A stretch of DNA of 27,930 nt. Origin: a virus. The position numbers and the translations under genes were made by a program. Of the stretch, positions 482 to 7,663 are shown piece by piece. Location of the stretch: positions 1-27,930 of the IMG/VR virus record IMGVR_UViG_3300025759_000528. One strand, given 5' to 3'. Under the pieces are notes generated by a model. The model worked only from the letters and a program-made list of their open reading frames with translations. It searched no databases and was not told the origin of the DNA. The first letter of the stretch is position 1, and each line of letters begins with the position of its first letter.

Positions 482-806
482 TCATTTCCCCTTTTAGCTT
501 TTTTGTAATATACTCTTCTCTGGTATATATCAAAGTCCATTGATTGCCTTTTCTAGGCACAGCGCCTTGACTATCCATAGTTATAACGTACTCATAATAA
601 TCTGTCAACCATATCATATCGTTAGTAATATCGCTGCGTTTTGGTATCCAAGCAAATCGCTTGATCCATTCTGTAGTTGGTGTGAAATGAGCACTTATAT
701 GCTTCATGTTTGCTGCTCTCTTATAAAATTCTTCATCCCTGATGTTGTAATCATCTACAACGGGATTTAGCAAGTATTTTGATCTTTGTACTCGATGTCT
801 CGACAC
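474..806 (-). CDS. Small conserved-looking protein between primase and helicase
   Basis: 110 residues, basic at the N-terminus and rich in aromatic residues, with no domain I recognise. The frame begins with GTG at 806, 56 nt inside the end of the primase gene. An AAGGAG lies about 11 nt upstream of that GTG. The next in-frame ATG would lose 33 residues, so the start is uncertain. The end overlaps the helicase start by 8 nt, which implies translational coupling. Its place between two primosome genes suggests a replication accessory role, but that is inference from context only. Confidence 0.65.
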   Translation of the reverse strand: MSRHRVQRSKYLLNPVVDDYNIRDEEFYKRAANMKHISAHFTPTTEWIKRFAWIPKRSDITNDMIWLTDYYEYVITMDSQGAVPRKGNQWTLIYTREEYITKKLKGEMNE

Positions 807-1770
807 TTTCTAATACACTCCTTACTGTAAACAGTCTACCATAGTGCATGGCTGCATCTCCGGCATCTTTAATATCTTCTTCCCATTCTGGAAAACTAAC
901 AGCCCATCCACGTTTGACTGCAATGTTTACTGTGTCTCTGCCTGGTTGATCAAAGTCCGGCAATAGCACAACATTTTTTCCTAAGTCTTCGATTATACTG
1001 CACTGTGTAGCACTAGGTGTGTTTCCTGCTAGTGCAACTCCGCCAGTTATCAGTGCATCAAATTGACCTTCAGTAACAATCACTGTGTCGTGTTTTTTCT
1101 GTGCATCTAAGTTGTACACAAAATGCTTTGGGCTTTGCAAATAATACTTGGGCATTGCTTCTGGTCTGTGTTCTGGTACCCAACGTGCAGTGTATCCTAC
1201 AGTAACGCCTTGGTATATAAATGGCAATATCACTCTATTAGCAAAGTGCATGTGTGGACTCCAATGCCAATGCTTGTGAAAATCTATACCACGTTTCATT
1301 AGATATGTACAAGCCAATGCCAGTTTATCCAGTTCTTTACTGTCCAGTTCATCTATAGGATATGCACCAATTGGATAACTGCGAGGAGGCAGTTCCATTG
1401 GCTCCCATTTTATTTTTGTTTTCTTAGTTTCTTGTTCTGGTATATAAACTCTACTGATATCTTTTGCATCTTGTTCTTTGAGCAGTTCTAAGTTAACTCG
1501 TTGTATATCACTTTCATCTGCACCAAATGCTTTCAATAAACTGGACAGTCTTCCTGCAATACGTCTATCTTCACTCCATCCTGTTTTGAATCCACAGTTA
1601 AAGCAATTGTACTGAAACTTTTTGTCTTGAAACATAATACCGCCTCTGCCTCGTTTGTCTGGACTATGACCACGAGTGTGGCACATTGGACAGTTGCCAC
1701 TGATCCAACCACTGGGTGTTTGTTTCCAGCCATGAGGCATGTTCTGACGAATAAAGTCTAGTACTATCAT
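751..1770 (-). CDS. 61: DNA primase (T4 gp61-like)
   Basis: 339 residues, close to T4 gp61 (342). An N-terminal zinc ribbon uses C27-x2-C30 and C56-x2-C59. A TOPRIM-type core follows, with the EG motif at E234-G235 (VTEGQFDAL) and DxD at D272/D274 (LLPDFDQPGRD), the residues that bind catalytic Mg2+ in this fold. It should make short RNA primers for lagging-strand synthesis together with the gp41 helicase encoded just downstream. A good sigma70-type promoter ends 6 nt before the ATG and there is no Shine-Dalgarno sequence, so the mRNA may start at the start codon. Confidence 0.92.
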   Translation of the reverse strand: MIVLDFIRQNMPHGWKQTPSGWISGNCPMCHTRGHSPDKRGRGGIMFQDKKFQYNCFNCGFKTGWSEDRRIAGRLSSLLKAFGADESDIQRVNLELLKEQDAKDISRVYIPEQETKKTKIKWEPMELPPRSYPIGAYPIDELDSKELDKLALACTYLMKRGIDFHKHWHWSPHMHFANRVILPFIYQGVTVGYTARWVPEHRPEAMPKYYLQSPKHFVYNLDAQKKHDTVIVTEGQFDALITGGVALAGNTPSATQCSIIEDLGKNVVLLPDFDQPGRDTVNIAVKRGWAVSFPEWEEDIKDAGDAAMHYGRLFTVRSVLESVETSSTKIKILAKSRCR

Positions 1771-1776
1771 ATATTG

Positions 1777-1805
1777 ATATTAGCTTCTGTAAACAACTTT
1801 GTCAA
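1777..1805 (-). promoter_or_regulatory. sigma70-type promoter for the primase operon
   Basis: On the minus strand TTGACA (1800-1805), a 17-nt spacer and TAATAT (1777-1782). Six bases separate the -10 box from the primase ATG at 1770, so the predicted +1 is at or next to the start codon. Confidence 0.75.
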
Positions 1806-2553
1806 GTGTTCCTGTGTTGGCTACATCCGGAGTGTGAACTATTCTCACATACTGATATTGACCATAAAATGTATGATATTTTACACCAGTGTCACTGGTT
1901 AAAGTATAACTTTGACCTGCAATATCAAACCAGTCACTGTCGGTGGGTTGTATACTCAGTGTTCCCTGAAACTTGTATACACCTGTATAATCTGTTGTGT
2001 GTACTTGTGCAGTTTGTAGTCCTGTTCTATTTGCGTTTTGTGCAGGACCTGTCATTCTACCACCAACTCTGTCATCTCCTACAGTTTGGAATACACTAAC
2101 AGTTTCACTTGCTCTAAATTCTCCAGGTTGATCTCTTACATCTAACACATAGGACAATCTCATGTTTTGATCACTTGTGCCGCCGTAACTTCCAGTGCTG
2201 TTTGTCAAGGTATAAGTAACTGTGACATCATATGTTTTTGCATCAAGTTGTGAAGTTTCTTCATGATCTAAATGAAGTAAAAGTATACCATTGTCATAAT
2301 CATGAGGCATTAATTGTTTATTAATAACAACAGCACCGCTAGTCCTGTCAATGATCTTACAAGTGTAGGTTTTATTGTGCAGAGTTTGTGGTTTACGATC
2401 TGTATCTTTTGCAAAAAAATCAATATCTATATTAAGACCTTTATAACAAACAAGTGGTTTGTGATTGTCAGGACCGTAGTAACTAGTGCCTCTGCGTTCA
2501 GGGATAAGTATTTCTGCCCGTTGGTTGTATTGATAAATGGTTGCTTGATGCAT
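1780..2553 (-). CDS. Putative virion (baseplate/tail fibre-type) beta-rich protein
   Basis: 257 residues, rich in Thr, Ser, Tyr and Asp, with alternating hydrophobic patterns typical of beta-sandwich phage structural proteins. No cysteine-rich or enzymatic motifs are visible. The N-terminal half (residues about 30-140) has the look of a BppU-like baseplate domain, but I cannot confirm that. A T4-late-type octamer AATAAATA (2571-2578) lies 17 nt upstream of the ATG, and GGAG sits 9 nt upstream. Late control fits a virion component although the neighbours are replication genes. It ends just before the primase promoter. Confidence 0.7.
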   Translation of the reverse strand: MHQATIYQYNQRAEILIPERRGTSYYGPDNHKPLVCYKGLNIDIDFFAKDTDRKPQTLHNKTYTCKIIDRTSGAVVINKQLMPHDYDNGILLLHLDHEETSQLDAKTYDVTVTYTLTNSTGSYGGTSDQNMRLSYVLDVRDQPGEFRASETVSVFQTVGDDRVGGRMTGPAQNANRTGLQTAQVHTTDYTGVYKFQGTLSIQPTDSDWFDIAGQSYTLTSDTGVKYHTFYGQYQYVRIVHTPDVANTGTLDKVVYRS

Positions 2554-2594: not shown

Positions 2595-2981
2595 ATGAAC
2601 AGTATTCCAAAGAAATATCAAAACTTATTAGACGATTTTCCTTTTTTAACGCTTGTAAGCTATGGAGGAAAAGAGTATGTAGGAATTATTCAAAATGTTG
2701 ATAATAATTTAGCCAGCATGTATAATTTTGATGGCATAAAAACATTAGAGCAAAAACAAATATTCTTGAATTTAGGTGAGGAATGGTGGTGGGGAACAAA
2801 TAGAATGATTCCCATTAACATAATTCTCAAAAGTCAATTTGAACCTTTTAAAGAATGTCTGCTTACTTTTAGCATCAAAGATTTTGAAATACTGCATGGT
2901 CCTTCTTTAAGTTTGAGTAATATTATACAAAAACGTGTTAAAAGAAAAAACATACAATTAGTCAGAAGAATGAACAATTAA
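2595..2981 (+). CDS. Conserved marine-phage hypothetical protein, the only plus-strand gene
   Basis: 128 residues, Lys/Asn/Ile-rich and AT-rich. The N-terminal half contains LVSYGGKEYVGIIQN followed by an acidic/tryptophan stretch (GEEWWWGTNR, about residues 62-71). The C-terminus is very basic (KKRVKRKN-like, residues 112-126) and could touch nucleic acid. I have the impression of having seen this family in many marine phages, always without function. It is transcribed against all its neighbours. The ATG is 6 nt after a late-type AATAAGTA, with no Shine-Dalgarno sequence. Its stop overlaps the stop of the convergent dioxygenase gene in a shared TTAA. Confidence 0.85.
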   Translation: MNSIPKKYQNLLDDFPFLTLVSYGGKEYVGIIQNVDNNLASMYNFDGIKTLEQKQIFLNLGEEWWWGTNRMIPINIILKSQFEPFKECLLTFSIKDFEILHGPSLSLSNIIQKRVKRKNIQLVRRMNN

Positions 2982-3718
2982 GTAGTTCTTAATGCACTGT
3001 TTACCTGAGGATCAATTACATCAAGCCTTCTGGCAGTTTTCTTTTCTGCAGCATGTAACAACAGAGCACGACGAATTTCATTGCTTTTGTTGGGCATAGT
3101 ACTGTGCAATAGTCTCGGATGCCAGCAAACGAAACTACCTGCGCCAGCAGTATATTGTTCATAATTATCTGCAAAAAACGGTGCCCACATATCTAAATTA
3201 TCACGCATTTGTATAGCATCATAGATGTACTTGTGTGAACCTGGAACATATCCTGTAGCACCGTTATCTGGTGTAAAGTCGCACATCATTACCATAAATT
3301 GTAATCCTAATAATCCTTCTGCATAACGAAACTCTTTAAATCTATACGGTGTATCGATATGTGGACGATAAAAATTCATACCTGGTTGTAATACAATAAA
3401 ATCTTGAACATGCCATACCCAATTACCTTGTCCAAATGCAGCATCTGCCATCGGTGATAGCTGATGTTTAATATTATTAATATGCGGATGATGCACATGC
3501 TCTGTCCAGTAATATGCCCAATCTACATCTTCTTTTGGATTTTCCATTTCAGCAACATTGTTCCACCCATACCATTTCATATTTTTATCATGCCCACGCT
3601 GTGGTTGCAGTGTACTAGCATAATCATTTAATTCATTAATCATGTCATGATTAAAAATATTTTGATGTACTGTAAATCCTATGTGATTAATGTCATTAAT
3701 AAATTTTTCTTTATCCAT
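2978..3718 (-). CDS. Phytanoyl-CoA dioxygenase (PhyH)-like 2OG-Fe(II) oxygenase
   Basis: 246 residues, the normal size for a compact PhyH-family enzyme. The iron-binding triad is visible as H120-x-D122 (FYRPHIDTPYRFK) and a distal H205 (RLLHSTMPN), with R216/R217 placed to bind the 2-oxoglutarate carboxylate. A VPGSH motif (158-162), typical of the family, precedes the distal His. Known relatives hydroxylate lipids, amino acids or other small molecules using O2 and 2-oxoglutarate; the substrate here is unknown. The ATG follows AGGATATTAGT. The gene starts directly after the stop of the DnaE-like ORF, so it may be co-transcribed with the replication block upstream. Probably auxiliary-metabolism or virion/DNA-modification cargo. 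Confidence 0.82.
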   Translation of the reverse strand: MDKEKFINDINHIGFTVHQNIFNHDMINELNDYASTLQPQRGHDKNMKWYGWNNVAEMENPKEDVDWAYYWTEHVHHPHINNIKHQLSPMADAAFGQGNWVWHVQDFIVLQPGMNFYRPHIDTPYRFKEFRYAEGLLGLQFMVMMCDFTPDNGATGYVPGSHKYIYDAIQMRDNLDMWAPFFADNYEQYTAGAGSFVCWHPRLLHSTMPNKSNEIRRALLLHAAEKKTARRLDVIDPQVNSALRTT

Positions 3719-3719
3719 A

Positions 3720-4289
3720 CTAATATCCTAATTGCTCACAAATCAAATTCATGTGTATGACCACAACCATTGCATAACTGAGTGCGTGAGCTTTTTTAAA
3801 GTAATATGCTTTGTTATCGTTTACAGGCTTGATCCATACCTGTTGCATTATGGTTTGCCAATCTTTGTCTTGTAAATAACGTTTGGCTGGTCTGATAATT
3901 GCCAGTGTTGCTGCTAGTTGTTCTACGCTGCACGGCTTTAATTTTTTAATAAGTTCATCATGCCCACTGAGATGAAAAAGTTGATCTACAAAATCTTTGT
4001 GTTCTAACAGTTCCCAGATTGGTTCTCTGTCCATGAGTTGTTGTAGATGATTATCGTCTTTAACATCTTTATAGATACTGAGGTTTAGCAAGTCTAATTT
4101 AAAAAAACCCATTTGATCTGCATCAGTGTGTTCTACTGTGCATACACCGCTAAAAGGATTGCTGGGTACTCTGTGAAAGTACACACCTGTGTTGTGCTTG
4201 CGCTGTTTTAGTTTTGCTGGAACATGTCTAAAAACTTCAAGTGCTTGTTGTCTATCTGCAAAGTCAATATCAATATCAGGTAGTTCCAT
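3720..4289 (-). CDS. Miniature C-family DNA polymerase (DnaE/Pol III alpha) palm-like protein
   Basis: 189 residues against about 1,160 for bacterial DnaE. Residues 4-10 (PDIDIDF) match the DnaE PDFDVDF motif, with D7/D9 at the positions of E. coli D401/D403. Residues 62-69 (FFKLDLLN) match KFDFLGL, with K64/D66 at K553/D555. Residues 111-135 (DELIKKLKP, then ATLAIIRPAK) match the DLIKRLQP...ALFRPGP region, and 166-177 (KKAHALSYAMVV) match the K-S/A-HAxxYA helix before the tau/thumb side. The PHP, OB and beta-binding parts and about 90 residues between the catalytic motifs are absent. It overlaps the zinc-finger gene by 14 nt (coupled). It may be a degenerate polymerase, a nucleotide-binding accessory or a new minimal enzyme. 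Confidence 0.75.
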   Translation of the reverse strand: MELPDIDIDFADRQQALEVFRHVPAKLKQRKHNTGVYFHRVPSNPFSGVCTVEHTDADQMGFFKLDLLNLSIYKDVKDDNHLQQLMDREPIWELLEHKDFVDQLFHLSGHDELIKKLKPCSVEQLAATLAIIRPAKRYLQDKDWQTIMQQVWIKPVNDNKAYYFKKAHALSYAMVVVIHMNLICEQLGY

Positions 4290-4983
4290 CTATCATCTCC
4301 TGTACAAAGTGTGCATCATGTGGATTCAATTGTCGTTTTTTAGCCCAATAGTCTGCATCGATACAATTGGCTATTCTGTTTACACACTCGTTGGGCATTG
4401 CACCAATTGCATGTTCTGCACGTTTACTACTGATAATAATCCACGGACTTATCTTGCCCATTTCAACCCAATCAGCAATTATATAACCACTGGCACTTTC
4501 CCAAAATGTATCAAAGTATTGTGTGGTGCTAGCATGCTGCACAAACCGTTCCAGCGCACGTTCTACACTTTCTCTTTTGCAATGATCCTGTACAAACAAC
4601 AAATACATTTTGTCTGTGGGCCAGTCTTTGAGCTTTACTTTGTTTTTGATCAACCAACGTGTAAACTGTTCTTGATCAATTACTCTTGTGTTAATACAAT
4701 AGTTACCATACTTTACAAAAGCTGTGTAGTATTGACTGTCAACAAAGTCTTTATACTCTCTAGGCTTGCTTTGCATTTCAATTCTATAAAACAAATCATA
4801 ACTGCCAAATCCTACCAAGACATCTTGATTATCTTTGCTTTGCCAACGTCTTTTCTTTTCACAACTGTGAGCCAAGAGTGTGCCTTCTCTTTGAAAGCTC
4901 TTCTTACAGTATTCACATTTGAATGTGCCCATTGTTACCTTTATATCACCAAGTTGGCTAACTACATTTTCTGCTGTGGTCAT
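4276..4983 (-). CDS. Zinc-finger protein coupled to the DnaE-like gene
   Basis: 235 residues. Near the N-terminus is a classical finger start, C23-x2-C26-x12-H39, but the last ligand position is unusual: C41 is only one residue away (HSCEKK) instead of x3-5. The following 190 residues are rich in Trp, Tyr, Lys and Asp and match nothing I recognise. It overlaps the gp62-like gene upstream by ATGA and the DnaE-like gene downstream by 14 nt, so all three are probably translated from one message. A DNA- or replisome-binding adaptor is a reasonable inference, not shown. Confidence 0.75.
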   Translation of the reverse strand: MTTAENVVSQLGDIKVTMGTFKCEYCKKSFQREGTLLAHSCEKKRRWQSKDNQDVLVGFGSYDLFYRIEMQSKPREYKDFVDSQYYTAFVKYGNYCINTRVIDQEQFTRWLIKNKVKLKDWPTDKMYLLFVQDHCKRESVERALERFVQHASTTQYFDTFWESASGYIIADWVEMGKISPWIIISSKRAEHAIGAMPNECVNRIANCIDADYWAKKRQLNPHDAHFVQEMIDGTT

Positions 4984-5450
4984 TTAAACAGCTCTTTGAT
5001 TTGTTTTTTATCCATGCCCATCTCTTCAGCAATGTCTACAAAGTCTTGTTTGCTATTTGTACTTACCAAAAGTTCTAGTTCATCGTCGTTGTATGTTGGA
5101 TAAAGTTCTTGCAACCACTTTAACAGTTTACCTGCTTTGCCTTTCTTTTGTTTACTAGGCGGAATCCAGGGATGAAACTGTGTTACACCCAAGCCCACAC
5201 ACTGTAACAGTTTGTGTTGCAGTTGAGGTTCATGTCTTAGGATATTGTAGTGCTTGTTTACTAATTCATTTGTTAGTTTAAGATAATGATATTCAATGTC
5301 TGGATTATTGGTTTGCACTGCACTGGTATAACGCATGAGCACAAAGATACCCACTTTCTTTTGTTCTTCTTCAGTCAAGCTATCCCACCACGATCTGTCA
5401 CGTTGGTCAATTGCTCGCATCTCTTCTTTGATACTCAGTTTGTTACTCAT
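4980..5450 (-). CDS. 62: Probable clamp-loader small subunit (T4 gp62-like)
   Basis: 156 residues (T4 gp62 has 187). The middle (FVLMRY, then NKHYNILRHEPQLQHKLL) and the basic-then-helical end (PSKQKKGKAGKLLKWLQ, then ELELLVSTN and IAEEMGMDKKQIKELF) follow the pattern I know from T4-like gp62 proteins: a start such as FMVNRGLS, a conserved region of basic residues with KW, then helices ending in a KExxDxI-like tail. The similarity is weak. gp62 partners with four gp44 ATPase subunits to load the gp45 clamp; gp44 and gp45 are not in this window. The start overlaps the upstream ORF (TAATG-type junction), implying coupling. Confidence 0.5.
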   Translation of the reverse strand: MSNKLSIKEEMRAIDQRDRSWWDSLTEEEQKKVGIFVLMRYTSAVQTNNPDIEYHYLKLTNELVNKHYNILRHEPQLQHKLLQCVGLGVTQFHPWIPPSKQKKGKAGKLLKWLQELYPTYNDDELELLVSTNSKQDFVDIAEEMGMDKKQIKELFK

Positions 5451-5715
5451 ACCAATGCTTTCTTTTATTGGGGTTGAATCCCATGTCTTCGTCGTAGTGT
5501 CTAATTGCTTGATTAATAATAGTCCACTTTATCCAACTGTCCCAACAATGATCTCTATTACCAAACACACTGTTTATAATATAAACTAAGTTAGCTTTAT
5601 TGTCACGTTTTCTTTGCCAATTTCTTGCACTAAACGTCTGATTGATTCTTCCTCCTAGTAAAACATTTACAAATATACTGAATGCAATACTAACTCGTCT
5701 AACATATCTTACCAT
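5443..5715 (-). CDS. Small hypothetical phage protein
   Basis: 90 residues, strongly basic with an N-terminal hydrophobic segment (about residues 8-22, VSIAFSIFVNVLLGG) followed by QTFSARNWQRK and a His/Cys pair (DHCWDS, 54-59). I recall similar short proteins with a VNVLLGG...QTFSARNW core in marine phages, with no assigned function. The hydrophobic run is short for a membrane span because conserved polar residues follow it. The ATG lies inside the end of the preceding gene (ATGGTAA), so it is translationally coupled. It overlaps the gp62-like start by 8 nt. Confidence 0.75.
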   Translation of the reverse strand: MVRYVRRVSIAFSIFVNVLLGGRINQTFSARNWQRKRDNKANLVYIINSVFGNRDHCWDSWIKWTIINQAIRHYDEDMGFNPNKRKHWYE

Positions 5716-6212
5716 AAATCATCCGTACTTAGTACATCTGGTATTTTATTTGTTTCCTTAACAAAGTACACACACGGACTGTTAGCATCTTCTGTTAGTG
5801 GCACTGTTAGTATGTGTCCAAACTTGAGTTTAGGAAAATACCATTTTACTTCTTGATAAATGTTAACTATCTCTATTTCTTCAAAACTGGGCAAGAATCC
5901 TGTGATTGGATTGAACACAAATGCTTTGAATCCTCTGTCGTTTAAACTTGTAACAGGCAACACTTCGGGTTCACCTATCATAGGATCACAAGTTACTAAA
6001 CTCCAGTCCAAAGGTATTTTAACATTTTTATCTCCAATTTTGAGTATTGCTGCAGGTGCATTAAAACTTTCTAAAAACACCAATGGAACAAAAATGTAAT
6101 CAGCATCCTTGGGATTGCTATAATCGAGAACACAATATCTTATATCCTCAATTTCTTCTGGCACCATATCTAAATTATATGCTGTATTATCTACTGTGAG
6201 TATTTTTGTCAT
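5709..6212 (-). CDS. Conserved hypothetical protein downstream of UvsW
   Basis: 167 residues, acidic, beta-rich in appearance, with no enzymatic signature. Notable segments are DYIFVPLVFLESFNAPAA and FNPITGFLPSFEE, full of Phe/Pro/Leu in a way typical of a small beta-barrel or interaction module. The start overlaps the stop of uvsW in ATGA, and the end overlaps the next small ORF, so the chain uvsW-this-90aa-gp62-like-zinc finger-DnaE-like is one coupled operon. Its constant place suggests a role in replication or recombination, by context only. Confidence 0.8.
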   Translation of the reverse strand: MTKILTVDNTAYNLDMVPEEIEDIRYCVLDYSNPKDADYIFVPLVFLESFNAPAAILKIGDKNVKIPLDWSLVTCDPMIGEPEVLPVTSLNDRGFKAFVFNPITGFLPSFEEIEIVNIYQEVKWYFPKLKFGHILTVPLTEDANSPCVYFVKETNKIPDVLSTDDLW

Positions 6213-7663
6213 CGATAATCCACTTTCTCTATATGAAACGGATATTTTGCTTCTCTATAGAATTTCTTTCTTTCTGTTAAATGTCTTTTGCTAAATTTTG
6301 CACTTGATGTAATATCCCAAATTTGCACATGGTCTTTGTCTTGTGCTTTACGAATGCCTCGTCCTATTGACTGGATAACACGGACAAAACTTTTGCCAGG
6401 CTCAACCAGCACAAGATTAAATATACGAGGAATGTTAATACCGACAGCCGCAACTCCATAGGTTGCCACAATGATTTTATTGTTTGCTTCGCTGACTTCA
6501 TCATACTCATCTTTTCTATCCTTGCTTTTCATTGATCCACTGATAAACACTGTGTCATCACCCAGTCTATCCACTAGTCCTTCGCCTGCCTTGATACGGT
6601 CAACCAACACCAATGTGTTTCCGCCTTGTGCTAGTTTGGCAATCAATTCACTCATATAGTCCAAGCGTTCTTTGTTTGTCGTCAAATATGTGAGTTCACT
6701 TTGATAATCCCCATAACTGATAGTATCTTGTAGTTGTAGTACGTTAACTTCACAGTTGGCTAGTACACCCATGTCTTGTAGTTCGTGTGCGCTCAAACTG
6801 TTGGTCACTTCGCCCAAGCTCACTTCCAAGCTCAAACGTTCGTGATCTGCTTTGGGTATTGTGCCTGTAAGCCCCCAACGAATTGGAATATTGCTGAATG
6901 CTCCAGTAAGCAGTTTTTTCAGGACATCTGCTTTGGCTTGGTGAACTTCGTCAACCATAACACACACAACTCCCTCTGCAAAATGGTGTAACCCTTCGTC
7001 TGCTAGCCCATCACGGAATCTTTTCTCTAAAACATTCAAACTCTGCCAAGTACATATGGTATGAGTTCGACCCAACTCTTTTCTATCACCGAAGTAAACA
7101 CCTACATCCAGTCCCAAGTTGACATAGTCAGCTTCTGTTTGAGTAACCAAGTCTTTGTTTGGAACGATAACAATAGTGCGTCCGTAGTTTTCGCACATAT
7201 AACTCAATGCCGCAGTAATCAGTGTCTTACCTGCACCAGTTGCAATCTCCTGCAAGCACTGTGGCGTTTGCAAGAACTTGTTGATGACCTCCACTTGATA
7301 ATCTCTGAGTACAATTGGTTCGCCTGCGGCTGGATGTTTCTTGGGCCAGACCCTGTCACTGAACAATTCTTCGGTTACCAAATCCCACTTGAGTTCGTGT
7401 GGTTGTCTGTGATCCTCTATATCAATGCTGTATCCTTCTTCATCAAGTATGGGCAAAATATGAGGCAAGCAATTTATAAATGTACTGCCACCCATTGTAA
7501 AGTAACCCACACAGCCGTCCCAACGTCCTAGTTTGTATGCTGGAACATGATATGCATATGGCAAAAAGAATTTGAGTTTCTTTTCTAATTTTCGACGAGT
7601 AGTCAACCCAAGTCCTTCAAACTTGCAGTTAACCTCGTCTTTGAGGACGAGTTTTGTTTTCAT
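6209..7663 (-). CDS. uvsW: UvsW-type superfamily 2 DNA helicase
   Basis: 484 residues (T4 UvsW 503). Helicase motifs in order: Walker A ATGAGKT (141-147), motif Ia IVIVPNK, motif II DEVH (238-241), motif III GLTGT (264-268), and a C-terminal RecA-like lobe ending with motif VI QSIGRGIRK. The first 110 residues form the UvsW N-terminal substrate-binding part. In T4, UvsW unwinds R-loops and branch-migrates recombination forks, moving replication from origin- to recombination-dependent mode. A sigma70 promoter ends 6 nt before the ATG and there is no Shine-Dalgarno sequence, so leaderless expression is possible. In T4 uvsW is expressed late; here the promoter looks early, a noteworthy difference. 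Confidence 0.95.
   Translation of the reverse strand: MKTKLVLKDEVNCKFEGLGLTTRRKLEKKLKFFLPYAYHVPAYKLGRWDGCVGYFTMGGSTFINCLPHILPILDEEGYSIDIEDHRQPHELKWDLVTEELFSDRVWPKKHPAAGEPIVLRDYQVEVINKFLQTPQCLQEIATGAGKTLITAALSYMCENYGRTIVIVPNKDLVTQTEADYVNLGLDVGVYFGDRKELGRTHTICTWQSLNVLEKRFRDGLADEGLHHFAEGVVCVMVDEVHQAKADVLKKLLTGAFSNIPIRWGLTGTIPKADHERLSLEVSLGEVTNSLSAHELQDMGVLANCEVNVLQLQDTISYGDYQSELTYLTTNKERLDYMSELIAKLAQGGNTLVLVDRIKAGEGLVDRLGDDTVFISGSMKSKDRKDEYDEVSEANNKIIVATYGVAAVGINIPRIFNLVLVEPGKSFVRVIQSIGRGIRKAQDKDHVQIWDITSSAKFSKRHLTERKKFYREAKYPFHIEKVDYR

Follow-up and report, generated by a model that had tools for sequence, protein, structure and literature searches.

What kind of polymerase protein fits into fewer than 200 amino acids, and can it work on its own? 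This question is raised by a short gene on a stretch of viral DNA of 27,930 nucleotides, which we refer to at its full length as the window. In an initial annotation, the gene was proposed to encode a miniature palm of a DnaE-like (C-family) polymerase with an intact catalytic triad. We found the open reading frame in place, with the DnaE motifs in order, and refer to it as gene B.

3720..4289, minus strand, gene B, 189 amino acids plus stop codon, ATG start, PHROG 11778

Homology of gene B to bacterial Pol III alpha

The motifs of B that follow the order of DnaE are PDIDIDF (residues 4-10), KHNTG (31-35), FKLDLL (63-68), LIKKLKP (113-119), IIRP (131-134) and FKKAHALSYA (164-173). The family PHROG 11778, annotated as 'DNA polymerase', matches residues 5-186 with E = 5.5e-60, and the general phage DnaE family phrog_405, which is of the full DnaE type, matches at 2e-9. 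Matches of the single B sequence to cellular DnaE are weak (Pfam finger domain E = 0.068, PDB phmmer E = 0.073). As these are marginal, the homology between B and DnaE rests on the family. Structure prediction, which had been suggested as a check, gave an AlphaFold model with a pLDDT of 85.2. Its 15 best PDB matches in Foldseek are all C-family polymerases (Pol III alpha/PolC), with probabilities up to 0.99 and a modest best E-value of 3.4e-3. Family profiles and structural matches thus bear out the proposed relationship: B is homologous to bacterial Pol III alpha in the palm and in part of the fingers.

To locate the active site, we mapped B onto E. coli DnaE, whose relevant motifs are P400-D401-F-D403-V-D405 and K553-F-D555. 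The order of DxDxD, KxD, RP and FxKxHxxxY is the same in both proteins. D5, D7 and D9 of B correspond to D401, D403 and D405, H32 to H511, K64 to K553, D66 to D555, R133 to R639, H168 to H760 and Y172 to Y764. The aspartate triad of the C family (D401, D403 and D555) is thus present as D5, D7 and D66. The triad had been assigned to D7, D9 and D66; the assignment of D66 holds, whereas the other two are shifted by one repeat of DxDxD. The conserved positions are encoded as follows:

4263..4277, minus strand, codons of D5-I-D7-I-D9, equivalent to E. coli D401/D403/D405 (metal ligands D401 and D403)
4185..4199, minus strand, codons of K31-H32-N-T-G35, equivalent to E. coli K510-H511-A-G-G514
4092..4100, minus strand, codons of K64-L-D66, equivalent to E. 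coli K553-F-D555, with the third catalytic aspartate
3888..3896, minus strand, codons of I132-R133-P134, equivalent to E. coli F638-R639-P640 in the fingers
3786..3800, minus strand, codons of F164-K-K166-A-H168, equivalent to E. coli F756-N-K758-S-H760 in the fingers

Compared to E. coli DnaE (1160 amino acids), B lacks the PHP domain, the GS half of the palm, the thumb, the LRRAMGKK element and the beta-binding, OB and C-terminal domains. The absence of the PHP, thumb, OB and clamp-binding parts had been stated in the initial annotation, and Pfam gives no match of B to any of them at E < 5. The estimate that about 90 residues are missing between the motifs also agrees with the spacing, since D7 and D66 are 59 residues apart, compared to 152 between D403 and D555. 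Beyond what the initial annotation listed, about 86 further residues are deleted between P134 (P640) and H168 (H760), and with them the fingers element LRRAMGKK (E. coli 708-715), which is absent from the 189 amino acids of B. Furthermore, as its sequence starts only with the DxDxD strand, B lacks the GPGRGS motif of the palm (E. coli 359-364). The B of the window is a stand-alone C-terminal protein, with the DxD...D metal site and the template-binding part and without PHP, OB or clamp domains.

Distribution and constraint of the B family

Relatives of B were found by tblastn in 90 phage records, which are mostly those of jumbo myoviruses (121Q, RaK2, GAP32, PA5oct, Atu_ph07, SCTP-2, XacN1 and Phosso); a carrier that is not a jumbo phage is the 141.6-kb Alishewanella phage Slickus01. 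A scan of viral contigs detected relatives on at least 579 viral stretches. From jumbo phages to marine contigs, the length of B is constant at about 185-215 amino acids. The PHROG 11778 family and the proteins annotated as 'DNA polymerase' in GenBank (121Q, GAP32, Atu_ph07) match B over its full length, and this label is silent on B being only half of a catalytic domain.

Among 90 distinct B sequences, we observed no substitution at D5, D7, D9, H32, G35, K64, D66, R133, P134, H168 or Y172. The first three aspartates are identical in all 89 sequences that reach that point, and K64, D66, R133, P134 and H168 are each identical in 90 of 90; K166 is always K or R. Free variation of the catalytic aspartates among homologues is thus untenable. 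Close relatives differ from each other with pN of 0.05-0.26 compared to pS of 0.40-0.82, and dN/dS is about 0.04-0.15 where dS is unsaturated and can be estimated. B is under strong purifying selection, and the earlier argument against decay is upheld by this ratio and by the invariance of D5, D7, D9 and D66.

In relative phages, a second gene encodes the GS part of the palm

The GS piece that is missing from B was found in a second small protein of about 175 amino acids, which we call A and which is present in nine of nine annotated relative phages; in 121Q, for example, A is gp56 and B is gp16. A matches PF07733 (2.1e-9 to 2.9e-11), aligns to residues 320-392 of E. coli DnaE and matches phrog_405 just upstream of the part that is matched by B. 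Its GxGRGS motif is identical in 89 of 89 sequences. The predicted structure of A (pLDDT 88.9) also has only C-family polymerases (Pol III alpha/PolC) among its 15 best PDB matches, with probabilities up to 1.00 and a modest best E-value of 2.2e-2.

EFL(K/R), which corresponds to L392 of E. coli DnaE, lies no more than a few residues from the end of nearly all A proteins listed. B starts at the equivalent of residue 399, so that A ends six to seven residues before B begins. The cut falls into the short loop that links the GS part to the DxDxD strand, as would result from a single ancient split. Jointly, A and B hold every conserved residue of the palm, and each of them is strongly constrained. 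By its sequence, the product of gene B is thus the putative C-terminal half of a split minimal Pol III alpha. That B is a minimal polymerase by itself, as had been considered, is unlikely; we rejected a stand-alone enzyme as the most likely explanation because the GS half is missing from B and was found as a separate gene in its relatives.

Co-occurrence of A, B and a B-family polymerase

We picked seven A-bearing viral contigs of more than 200 kb without use of B. B is present in six of them, and a B-family polymerase in all seven. The contig without detectable B (IMGVR_UViG_3300035698_035310, 359 kb) encodes A and a B-family polymerase; either it is incomplete, or its B has been lost or is very divergent. 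A contig of 180.9 kb (G001) combines A, a B-family polymerase and a close relative of the window's B. All nine isolate relative phages encode a T4-type B-family polymerase, and no Pol A was found over the cut-off in the relative phages. When comparing divergence, we find that the distances of A and of B are correlated (r = 0.81, 17 genomes, permutation p = 2e-4), which could also be expected from plain vertical inheritance alone. From the A-bearing contigs, G001 and the correlated distances, we infer that the split pair is inherited together, and this in phages already equipped with a T4-type replicase.

The window is only a fragment. A GS-motif scan and a profile search detected no A in its 27.9 kb, and there is no B-family polymerase among its open reading frames; the phage's own A and gp43 lie either outside the fragment or are absent from the phage. 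The genes near A in other genomes mostly have no counterpart in the window, so that the absence of A is uninformative, and the pairing of A and B in this phage is transferred from its relatives. In other phages, A and B can be separated by more than 100 kb. In marine relatives, a GS-motif scan and a profile search detected no A within 10 kb of B, except for a single-chain polymerase in some contigs, and no A was seen in several marine B contigs of 85-144 kb, which may be fragments.

Gene neighbourhood of B

B is part of a block whose gene order is shared by the window, environmental contigs and most isolate jumbo phages. The block comprises a UvsW helicase, two to three small genes, a zinc-finger-like protein of 235 amino acids and B, followed by a small gene on the opposite strand, a structural protein and a DnaG-type primase. 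In the window, these are:

6209..7663, minus strand, UvsW-type helicase, upstream end of the conserved block
5709..6212, minus strand, conserved neighbour of 167 amino acids, PHROG 11279
4980..5450, minus strand, conserved neighbour of 156 amino acids, PHROG 11758
4276..4983, minus strand, protein of 235 amino acids with one C2H2-like zinc finger, PHROG 11058, directly upstream of B
2595..2981, plus strand, small conserved gene, convergent with B, at the same place in most relatives (88 loci)
1780..2553, minus strand, virion structural protein, PHROG 14467, conserved neighbour
751..1770, minus strand, DnaG-type primase, downstream end of the conserved block

The first 14 bases of B are shared with the end of the gene upstream. 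This C2H2-like neighbour accompanies B in jumbo phages as well as in environmental contigs and is a possible candidate for a partner of the split enzyme.

The position directly after B is occupied in the window by a phytanoyl-CoA dioxygenase-like gene (2978-3718, minus strand, PF05721, 1.1e-19), which is also found there in the contigs L002 and L007. L013 has a methyltransferase-like gene instead, and many relatives have nothing. As the content varies among these genomes, this position looks like a cargo slot.

Single-chain C-family polymerases in marine contigs

Several kilobases downstream of B, seven marine contigs (L013, L018, L023, L029, L065, L076 and L077) encode a C-family polymerase of about 545 amino acids in a single chain without a PHP domain. 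For instance, it is located at:

L013, 14841-16472, single-chain polymerase
L023, 18533-20194, single-chain polymerase
L065, 16422-17681, single-chain polymerase, cut by the contig end
L076, 10740-12383, single-chain polymerase
L029, 12760-14181, single-chain polymerase, cut

Polymerases of this type combine A-like and B-like parts of the palm in one chain and are only remotely similar to A and B (hhalign probabilities of 93 and 75). Unlike B, they retain the fingers element in full (YRRAFAKK) and extend further at the C-terminus. A related single-chain polymerase is encoded together with a B-family polymerase by the 484-kb uncultured phage LR756508.1, where the A and B profiles match only inside the single-chain polymerase.

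Proposed function and alternatives

We consider it likely that B is the half that binds metal and template in a minimal C-family nucleotidyltransferase (Pol III alpha type) made of two subunits. A and B would bind each other and together rebuild a Pol beta-like palm. In such a complex, A would contribute the GS helix, which binds the triphosphate of the dNTP, and B would supply D5, D7 and D66 to hold two Mg ions, along with cut-down fingers and part of the template path. The complex may then add nucleotides to DNA in auxiliary synthesis beside gp43, such as gap filling, repair, or recombination-linked or one-strand synthesis. This proposal builds on computed features, namely the homology of both halves, the split point, the invariant active-site residues in both proteins, their co-occurrence and correlated divergence, the purifying selection on B and the presence of a B-family polymerase in the same relatives. 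Processive synthesis is doubtful, as LRRAMGKK, thumb, PHP, OB and the clamp-binding domain are missing. With LRRAMGKK, the thumb and the clamp-binding parts gone, synthesis by the complex would rather be short and non-processive, or the reaction might even be a different kind of nucleotide transfer.

The latter possibility could be taken further: instead of a DNA polymerase, A and B might form a nucleotidyltransferase that needs no template or processes ends, with DNA, RNA or a small molecule as its substrate. The palm belongs to the Pol beta nucleotidyltransferase superfamily, and it is the dNTP-contacting LRRAMGKK that is missing in B, whereas the single-chain C-family relatives from the same environment keep YRRAFAKK. 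However, B retains fingers helices with IRP and FKKxHxxxYA, and its conserved block includes a DNA primase and the UvsW helicase. We therefore regard such an activity as improbable, if worth keeping in mind.

In part of the marine lineage, B might work without A, perhaps with the neighbouring single-chain polymerase 6-10 kb away. When the latter was used as a query, all 11 contigs found carried B, but they showed no A and no B-family polymerase in up to 144 kb of sequence. A marine T4-like sublineage could thus have been rewired, with A gone and the catalytic B kept with or beside the single-chain polymerase, perhaps without a gp43-type replicase. However, these contigs are fragments centred on one region, A may lie more than 100 kb from B as in other phages, and the nearest relatives of the window (L004, L005, L006 and L007) have no such polymerase within about 10 kb downstream of B. 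Both B acting without A and the rewiring of a sublineage thus appear unlikely to us, at about the level of the end-processing activity.

Slightly less probable still is that B, with A, is not an enzyme and has a structural or regulatory role, binding the phage replisome or poisoning or decoying the host Pol III by imitating its alpha subunit. Such a role would suit a tiny protein that lacks many polymerase domains in phages that already own a full replicase. Yet no metal- or nucleotide-binding position of A or B varies over a very large divergence, and a decoy would not need D5, D7, D66 and K64 or GxGRGS. The clamp-binding and PHP parts provide the contacts to clamp and exonuclease; a decoy of the holoenzyme would be expected to copy these parts, which B lacks. 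The decoy role raised in the initial annotation thus finds no support here.

Lastly, its shortness and the loss of most DnaE domains might suggest that B is what remains of a full DnaE gene in decay. This is refuted by purifying selection, invariant catalytic sites, constant length and a fixed neighbourhood, and we give it practically no weight.

Relation to previous work

Our preferred reading, a split minimal Pol III alpha, has been described before in the 'group 2.2' jumbo phages (Iyer et al. 2021, Viruses 13:63, PMC7824862). A C-family fragment had been called unexpected in T4-like phages, yet it is a described hallmark of this group. The window shares with that system the same C-terminal Mg- and template-binding protein, and the relatives of the window share the distant, separate N-terminal NTP-binding protein A and the T4-type B-family polymerase. 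It differs in coming from the environment as a fragment, and neither A nor the B-family polymerase is seen on it. In addition, the relatives detected here include the 141.6-kb Slickus01 and many environmental contigs that are not treated in that paper. The genome papers of Atu_ph07 (PMC6102473) and CBB (PMC5259590) noted the pieces of Pol III alpha one at a time, the latter calling a homologue of 172 amino acids truncated. Our literature search found only the one paper that describes the split form, and no experimental work on the family.

The window is thus a further, environmental member of the kind described by Iyer et al., and its phage is probably marine. As the arrangement was published in 2021, the window extends the known distribution and sharpens the evidence at the level of residues and does not define a new class. 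The additions made here are the precise position of the split, the counts of invariant residues, the test of co-occurrence and the spread beyond jumbo phages. If nucleotide- and metal-binding halves of a palm do exist as separate proteins, they would be a natural test of the minimal Pol III alpha that suffices for nucleotide transfer. Members of the family are plentiful both among environmental viruses and among cultured phages that infect E. coli, Klebsiella and Pseudomonas, which makes it accessible to such tests.
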